A stretch of 64,000 nucleotides of DNA from Lentisphaerota bacterium (GTDB lineage Bacteria > Verrucomicrobiota > Lentisphaeria > Victivallales > Victivallaceae), in the NCBI GenBank assembly GCA_015061625.1, contig SUWG01000003.1:108489-172488 (forward strand). Reading direction: 5' to 3'. Shown here in pieces: positions 49,762 to 52,135 of this stretch; positions within the stretch are counted from its first letter, which is position 1, and each line of letters opens with the position of its first letter. The notes below the pieces were generated by a model, which saw nothing but the letters and a program-made list of their open reading frames with translations, ran no database searches and was not told where the DNA came from. Both the position numbers and the translations under genes were made by a program.

Positions 49762-51489
49762 ATGAGCAAGTTTGATTTGGAAACCATCCGTCACAGTGCG
49801 GCTCACGTTATGGCCGCGGCCGTGAAACAACTTTATCCCGATGCCCGTTTCGATATCGGGCCGGCTACTGATAACGGATTTTATTATGACTTTGATATGG
49901 AGCACCGTCTGGTCGCTGAAGATCTCAAAGAGATCGAAAAGGTCATGAAAAAGATCATCGGGCGCAAACTTCCCTTTGAAAGATTTGAAACCTCCCGTGA
50001 AGAGGCCAAAGAGTTGCTTGCCGGTCAGAATTATAAACTTGAGCGTCTGGCGGATATTGAAGATGGGGCTCCCATCAGTTTCTACCGCACCGGCGATTAT
50101 CTGGATCTCTGCCGCGGCCCTCATGTGGATAATTCCGGCGACATCGGTGCGGTCAAATTGACCGGTATTGCCGGCAGTTACTTCCGCGGTGATGAAAACA
50201 ATCCCATGCTGCAGCGTATCTACGGCACGGCTTTCGCCACGCAGGAAGAGCTGCAGACCTATCTCAAGCAGTTGGAAGAAGCCGCCAAACGCGATCACCG
50301 CAAACTCGGCACGGAACTGGATCTTTTCGGTTTCTCCGATTGTGTCGGTCCCGGTCTGGTTTTGTGGCATCCCAAAGGTGCGCTGGTGCGTCATCTGATG
50401 GAAACTTTCTGGAAAGATGAGCATTACAAAAACGGTTATGAATTGCTTTACACCCCCCACATCGGTCAGAGCAACCTCTGGGAGACCAGCGGACACTTGA
50501 ATTTCTACCGTGAGGGTATGTATTCGGCCATGGAGATCGACGAAAAAGATTACTATGTCAAGCCGATGAATTGCCCGTTCCACATTGAAGTTTACCGTTC
50601 AAAATTGCGCAGTTACCGGGAATTGCCGCTGCGCTGGGCGGAATTGGGAACGGTCTACCGTTATGAAAAATCCGGTTCACTTCACGGTTTGATGCGGGTG
50701 CGCGGATTCACCCAGGATGACTCTCACATCATCTGTACTCCGGAATCCATCGAAGACGAGATCGCTGAAGTTCTCCGTTTCAGTCTGGCGATCAACCGGG
50801 CATTCGGCTTTACCGATATCAAGGCTTACCTTTCCACCCGGCCGGAAAAGGCGGTCGGCGAACCGGAACGCTGGGATAAGGCGATCGATTCTCTGCGCAA
50901 AGCCGTGGCGAAGTGTGAATTGGAGTGCGATGTCGATGAGGGCGGTGGTGCTTTCTACGGGCCGAAAATCGACCTGAAACTGCGCGATGCCATCGGCCGT
51001 GAATGGCAGACGACGACCATTCAGTTTGACTTCAATCTGCCGGAAAGATTCGATATGACCTATATCGGAGAAGATGGCAAAAAGCACCGTCCTTTCATGG
51101 TTCACCGTGCATTGCTCGGTTCGTTGGAGCGTTTCTTCGGTATTCTGGTCGAGCATTATGCCGGCAAGTTCCCGATGTGGCTGGCTCCGGAACAGGCGAG
51201 GATTTTGCCGGTTTCCGACAAGCAGCTTGATCTGGCCAAAGAATTCCAGCAGGAGTTGCGGGCCAAAGGTTTCCGGGTCGGCATCGATACGCAGGCCGCC
51301 GGTCTCGGAGCGAAGATCCGGGCTGCCCGTTCCGAGCGCATTCCCTATTTGCTGGTGCTGGGTGAAAGAGAGCAGGAAAACCGTACATTGTCCGTCCGCA
51401 ACCGCAATGAAGGCGAGATCGGTGAGATGACCATCGACAAACTTGCAGAAAAAATGCGTGCAGAAGTTGACAATAAGGTAATTTGGTAA
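49762..51489 (+). CDS. thrS: Threonyl-tRNA synthetase lacking TGS domain
   Basis: 575 residues. It starts directly with the editing (N2/TAA) domain motif HSAAHVMAAAV and continues with the SAD region, class II catalytic motifs (MNCPFHIEVYRSKLRSYRELPLR, RYEKSGSLHGLMRVRGFTQDDSHI, VHRALLGSLERFFGILVEHY) and a normal anticodon-binding domain. The N-terminal TGS domain (about 60 residues) found in typical ThrRS is absent; upstream sequence in this frame does not supply it. Short forms exist in other bacteria and can be functional. Shine-Dalgarno ttggag. Confidence 0.93.
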   Translation: MSKFDLETIRHSAAHVMAAAVKQLYPDARFDIGPATDNGFYYDFDMEHRLVAEDLKEIEKVMKKIIGRKLPFERFETSREEAKELLAGQNYKLERLADIEDGAPISFYRTGDYLDLCRGPHVDNSGDIGAVKLTGIAGSYFRGDENNPMLQRIYGTAFATQEELQTYLKQLEEAAKRDHRKLGTELDLFGFSDCVGPGLVLWHPKGALVRHLMETFWKDEHYKNGYELLYTPHIGQSNLWETSGHLNFYREGMYSAMEIDEKDYYVKPMNCPFHIEVYRSKLRSYRELPLRWAELGTVYRYEKSGSLHGLMRVRGFTQDDSHIICTPESIEDEIAEVLRFSLAINRAFGFTDIKAYLSTRPEKAVGEPERWDKAIDSLRKAVAKCELECDVDEGGGAFYGPKIDLKLRDAIGREWQTTTIQFDFNLPERFDMTYIGEDGKKHRPFMVHRALLGSLERFFGILVEHYAGKFPMWLAPEQARILPVSDKQLDLAKEFQQELRAKGFRVGIDTQAAGLGAKIRAARSERIPYLLVLGEREQENRTLSVRNRNEGEIGEMTIDKLAEKMRAEVDNKVIW

Positions 51490-51507
51490 TATATTATATG
51501 AAGTGAC

Positions 51508-51534
51508 ACCCTCTGCTGTCGTGGCAGAGGGGGT
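51508..51534 (+). terminator. Hairpin between thrS and infC
   Basis: ccctctgc/gcagaggg stem with a 7-nt loop, followed by only a few T's (gtcttt). It could be a weak terminator or an attenuator ahead of infC-rpmI-rplT. Confidence 0.5.
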
Positions 51535-51622
51535 CTTTAAGTATGGAAAACTTTGATCACAGTGACAAGGTTTTCTGAAATTGGTGAGAATTAAAGTACC
51601 GTTTTGAGAGGAGGGTGTTCTT

Positions 51623-52135
51623 ATCGCCAAGTTGTTGAAACCCAATGATCGCAGCGTCCAGCTCGATCAGGTGCGCCTGATTGGTTCAGATGGAAGTCAG
51701 CTGGGGGTGGTTCCTTATGTCCGCGCCAAGGAGTTGGCATTAGAGGCAGGGGAGGATCTCGTATTGGTTTCCGATACGTCGAATCCGCCGGTGGTCAGGA
51801 TCATGAATTTCGGCAAACTGTGCTATGAGCAGAAAAAGAATCTCAAAGCACAGCGCAAGAACACCGCCGCGCAAAAGGTCAAAGAGATCAAGTTTCATAT
51901 CAATATCGACCAGCACGATTATGAAACCAAGATCAATAAAGCGATCGACTTCCTTGATAAGAAGTTCCGCGTGAAGATCACTTTGGCAATGCGCGGCCGT
52001 GAGATGGCTCATCAGGATATGGCCTTTGAACTTATGGATAAGGTCACTGAAGCCCTGACTCCCTACGCAGATGCTGACGGCAAAGCCAAGTTGCTCGGCC
52101 GTAATATCTCGGTGAATTTCGCACCTAAAAATTAA
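51623..52135 (+). CDS. infC: Translation initiation factor IF-3, probable AUC start
   Basis: IF-3, 170 residues. VRLIGSDGSQLGVV and PPVVRIMNFGKLCYEQKK mark the N domain; VKEIKFHINIDQHDYETKINKAIDFL and KVTLAMRGREMAHQDM-like sequence mark the C domain. No ATG or GTG precedes the conserved part. The ORF track uses TTG at 51632, 16 bp after the Shine-Dalgarno. In frame at 51623 is ATC, exactly 7 bp after the strong gaggagg (AUC-GCC-AAG-TTG...). AUC fits the known use of rare start codons (AUU in E. coli) for IF-3 autoregulation. rpmI and rplT follow. Confidence 0.88.
   Translation: MAKLLKPNDRSVQLDQVRLIGSDGSQLGVVPYVRAKELALEAGEDLVLVSDTSNPPVVRIMNFGKLCYEQKKNLKAQRKNTAAQKVKEIKFHINIDQHDYETKINKAIDFLDKKFRVKITLAMRGREMAHQDMAFELMDKVTEALTPYADADGKAKLLGRNISVNFAPKN

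Follow-up and report, generated by a model that had tools for sequence, protein, structure and literature searches.

In E. coli, infC has an AUU start, and its product, translation initiation factor IF3, limits its own synthesis. The thrS gene lies 5' of infC in that species also, as it does in the window, our term for the whole 64-kb stretch of DNA analysed here. B. subtilis infC likewise starts with AUU (PMC1805508, PMC6097659). The E. coli and B. subtilis genes share with the window gene a start lacking a third-position G, a strong Shine-Dalgarno (SD) sequence and the infC-rpmI-rplT cluster. Both have AUU where the window has AUC, however, and autocontrol has been demonstrated only in E. 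coli. In Streptomyces, infC starts with ATC (PMC5472188), so that gene and codon are the same as in the window, and gene callers usually misannotate it; this is a distant phylum, though, and control there is by a SigR promoter, unlike in the window. In S. aureus, ribosome profiling (Ribo-Ret) revealed an AUA start (PMC13009471). This start too belongs to the AUH class (AUA, AUC or AUU) and has an extended SD like that of the window, but the codon differs. Finally, the L20 leader of Firmicutes (Rfam) lies 5' of infC in the same infC-rpmI-rplT operon, whereas the leader in the window has no Rfam match. A search of the openly accessible literature for infC starts in Lentisphaerota or Verrucomicrobia found no direct report.

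The infC locus and its start region

The window infC (51623..52135, forward strand; 170 codons plus stop) encodes IF3. Its protein scored 161.4 bits against TIGR00168 (infC; cut-off 60) and matched the PDB IF-3 chains 5lmn and 8jsg. The gene order around it is thrS-infC-rpmI-rplT-pheS-pheT, all features located here being on the forward strand. Its 5' neighbour is thrS (49762..51489; TIGR00418, 713 bits), and on the 3' side follow rpmI (L35; 52251..52451) and rplT (L20; 52478..52828), two ORFs with ATG starts whose family names were taken from their sequence and the gene order.

Upstream, the infC frame is closed by an in-frame TGA (51605..51607) that is invariant among close relatives (alignment A1). 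The five codons that follow, GAG GAG GGT GTT CTT, include no ATG, GTG or TTG and lead to an ATC (51623..51625), behind which the frame continues GCC AAG TTG TTG AAA CCC AAT GAT. Ahead of the conserved IF-3 sequence the frame contains neither ATG nor GTG, and its first canonical codons are the TTGs at 51632 and 51635, which lie 17 and 20 nt past AGGAGG. The SD, AGGAGGG (51609..51615), forms a predicted anti-SD duplex of -12.2 kcal/mol. Its AGGAGG (51609-51614) ends 8 nt before the ATC, or 7 nt when counted from GGAGGG. A preliminary description of this DNA had proposed an AUC start on the ground that no ATG, GTG or well-spaced TTG lies ahead of conserved IF-3 sequence. We confirmed that ground and the positions given for the ATC and both TTGs; the spacings needed correction, from 7 bp to 8 nt for the ATC and from 16 to 17 for the nearer TTG.

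None of the 24 ATG genes of the window that were checked has so strong an SD (-9.3 to -0.9 kcal/mol). Across infC loci, the SD energy of infC was -11.0, compared with -6.1 for rpmI and -9.3 for rplT at the same loci. A search for other AUH starts, which covered the 64-kb window, examined 54 long non-overlapping frames for an ATA, ATC or ATT that has a strong SD, comes before the first ATG, GTG or TTG and is not followed by a well-placed canonical start. The sole clear case was infC.

Conservation in the order, class and phylum

Among named genomes, the nearest relatives belong to Lentisphaeria/Victivallaceae and come for the most part from animal guts; they include Victivallis vadensis DSM 14823, whose infC also begins with ATC. 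All 75 genomes surveyed in the window's order had ATA, ATC or ATT at the aligned infC start; in 73 it lay at model position 1, and in the other two an offset of one residue placed it one codon further upstream. An SD was scored in 71 order genomes, of which 54 had it 8 nt before the AUH; the spacing in the others was 5-9 nt. In 27/75 order genomes, the stretch that begins at the upstream stop and extends to codon +10 held no ATG, GTG or TTG at all. The preliminary description had named relatives as a check on its proposal, and the check favours it: relatives have no ATG or GTG at another place in the alignment, and the window's TTG codons (+3 and +4) were not conserved, being CTG, TTA or CTT in many relatives. 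In 35/75 order genomes the frame 5' of the AUH consisted of only 3-5 codons, all of them SD and spacer.

Within the class, 116/127 genomes had an AUH infC start, the exceptions being one GTG clade of 10 genomes and a single TTG. Relatives of the window use AUA in some families, and all three of AUU, AUC and AUA were found within one genus. Outside the class, ATT or ATC with an SD was present in most families sampled from the phylum but not in f28 (GTG) or f35 (TTG). At five infC loci of f28, a verrucomicrobial family, the GTG lies about 15-22 codons 5' of the core and has no recognisable SD. Beyond the phylum, the best SD-supported start was ATA at most of 18 alphaproteobacterial infC loci (Sneathiella, Parvularcula, Marinicauda and others), several of which lacked any in-frame canonical codon.

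A coding isoleucine could likewise vary among ATA, ATC and ATT, so further features were used to distinguish a start from an internal Ile. In the class-wide set the residue at -1 of the AUH was of 12 different kinds. The residue behind it was Ala in 101, Ser in 12, Pro in 2 and Gly in 1 (n = 116), the pattern expected after a start. Across 24 family codes, internal Ile columns reached at most 89% Ile, against 100% AUH at codon 0 with the two rows that are shifted by one codon included; these 116 genomes were picked for their AUH start, but the unselected order (75/75) likewise has AUH throughout. The alignment profile was seeded with sequences beginning at the AUH, which leaves position 1 not wholly independent of it, but it is the full 170-residue protein that produces the match. 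Ile-codon usage did not differ significantly between the start position and internal Ile codons (p = 0.08). Codon choice alone thus cannot tell a start from a coding Ile, and because it was not significant this comparison was not used as evidence.

Probable initiation at AUC and alternative readings

The absence of a usable canonical start, the strong SD, the conservation of AUH in order and class, and the Ala, Ser, Pro or Gly next to it make an AUC start the best reading. The codon, its SD, the lack of a usable alternative and the conservation are all features of the sequences themselves, and from them we infer that initiation takes place at the AUC. We put the probability at about 93% that infC translation begins at the AUC at 51623 with its strong SD, that expression is thereby kept low and that IF3 probably represses itself. 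The initiator fMet-tRNA would decode this AUC, positioned by the very strong SD. IF3 would reject complexes on codons without a third-position G, and AUC would for that reason keep infC expression low. By analogy with AUU in E. coli, abundant IF3 would then probably repress its own synthesis via the AUC. The predicted product is (f)Met-AKLLKPNDRS..., from which the Met ahead of Ala is probably cleaved off.

How strongly the window IF3 discriminates cannot be assumed, because several of the E. coli arginines are replaced. We compared it with an E. coli IF3 sequence that agrees with the aligned 8jsg_A stretch (residues 17-177). The sites of R99, R112, R116 and R147 are His, Asn, Asp and Lys, respectively, and R131, R133, R168, Y75, K79 and K97 are kept. 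Nearly all order genomes have Glu or Asp at the R116 site, and most have His at the R99 site. A literature search on the roles of the IF3 arginines found nothing usable.

Two other positions for the start were weighed. Initiation at the TTG at 51632 or 51635, the earliest canonical codons in the frame, would give an IF3 of 166-167 residues, as a mechanical ORF caller would report. Several points speak against this: the two TTGs are 17 and 20 nt away from the SD, their local pairing is weak (-3.2 and +1.9 kcal/mol), relatives have CTG, TTA or CTT in their place, and 27/75 order genomes have no canonical codon in the region. It would also leave the conserved Ala-Lys untranslated, and we regard it as highly improbable. 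The ATC might instead be an internal Ile behind a start at some other odd codon, GTT at 51617 or CTT at 51620, given that five sense codons separate the stop from the ATC and that the open frame is longer in some relatives. However, only 2 and 5 nt separate GTT and CTT from the SD, the -1 codon is free to vary among relatives (12 residues), and in 35/75 order genomes the 3-5 codons left 5' of the AUH fall within SD and spacer. An upstream start of this kind is hardly credible.

A further alternative accepts the AUC as the start and concerns its purpose: the codon may merely set a low, constant rate of IF3 synthesis, with no IF3 feedback in this lineage. The replaced arginines are consistent with this, and the strong SD may serve to compensate for a weak codon. 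Yet ATG, GTG and TTG are excluded throughout the order even though ATA to ATG is one transition, which suggests selection for a discriminated codon; a merely low rate could also be reached by ATG with a weaker SD. Moreover, IF3 in general rejects codons lacking a third-position G (PMC4611024). We therefore consider the absence of feedback unlikely and favour an AUC start through which IF3 probably acts on its own synthesis.

Predicted promoter and leader of infC

A sigma-70 promoter, TTGACA-17-TATATT (51467..51495; 11/12 matches), was predicted overlapping the thrS stop codon. It was kept in 14 of 15 aligned sequences while the leader behind it diverged, and at least 10/12 matches were found in 34/56 relatives' loci. 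With a conserved predicted promoter at that place, infC is probably transcribed separately, its leader measuring about 120 nt. Among close relatives, the part of the leader that runs from promoter to SD was hypervariable in sequence and length, with TTTGARAGGAGGGTRTTCTTATH as a conserved island of SD, spacer and AUH, a contrast that favours the AUH start. A strong hairpin was predicted near the 5' end of the leader (51505..51535; fold of 51501-51660, z = -2.3). It is terminator-like but has a poor T run, and few relatives have it. As the leader is hypervariable among relatives, we ruled out this hairpin as a conserved control element. An Rfam search of the infC leader and operon gave no matches at the gathering threshold or at E <= 1, and the L20 leader covariance model matched nothing in the infC leader at either threshold.

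Evolution of the start codon and a GTG clade

On an IF3 tree of the 127 class genomes, the start codon changed at least 17 times, about 15 times among AUH codons and twice between AUH and canonical codons. Within the order, ATA, ATC and ATT replaced one another at least 11 times, and no change led to a canonical codon. The tree was a quick one made from a single short protein and has many weak forks, so these counts are minimal and rough. Class genomes with a canonical start had a mean SD of -6.3 kcal/mol, compared with -9.9 kcal/mol in AUH genomes outside the order. In the 10 genomes of the GTG clade, which belong to family f11, the SD was weak or not found. Tyr75 of IF3 (E. coli numbering) was Phe in 8/10 of them and Tyr in all 14 other f11 genomes.

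These observations led us to a tentative proposal, to which we give slightly less than even odds. AUH would be the ancestral infC start of the class, and probably of much of Verrucomicrobiota, from which the f11 clade of 10 escaped to GTG with weaker SDs and, in 8/10, a Tyr75-to-Phe change. If true, this clade would represent a natural loss of IF3 autocontrol that was compensated in SD strength.

Significance

An AUH start of infC is not new as a principle; what appears to be new is the lineage in which a known phenomenon is found. The preliminary description had seen in the AUC the logic of E. coli carried out with another codon. The AUC finding itself is borne out, and so is its interpretation to the extent that sequences can tell. 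The comparison with E. coli stands, although AUC already has a precedent in the ATC of Streptomyces (PMC5472188). The extension to Lentisphaeria and Verrucomicrobiota, together with a clade that lost the AUH start, appears to be new.

The AUC reading corrects the start of an essential gene, which gene callers probably misplace in this lineage. It also reveals an AUH infC start retained across a whole order despite drift of the codon itself. The picture of IF3 autocontrol is thereby added to rather than changed. One clade of the class manages without an AUH start, indicating that AUH control is not indispensable, and this GTG clade offers a natural comparison for the outcome when such control is lost.
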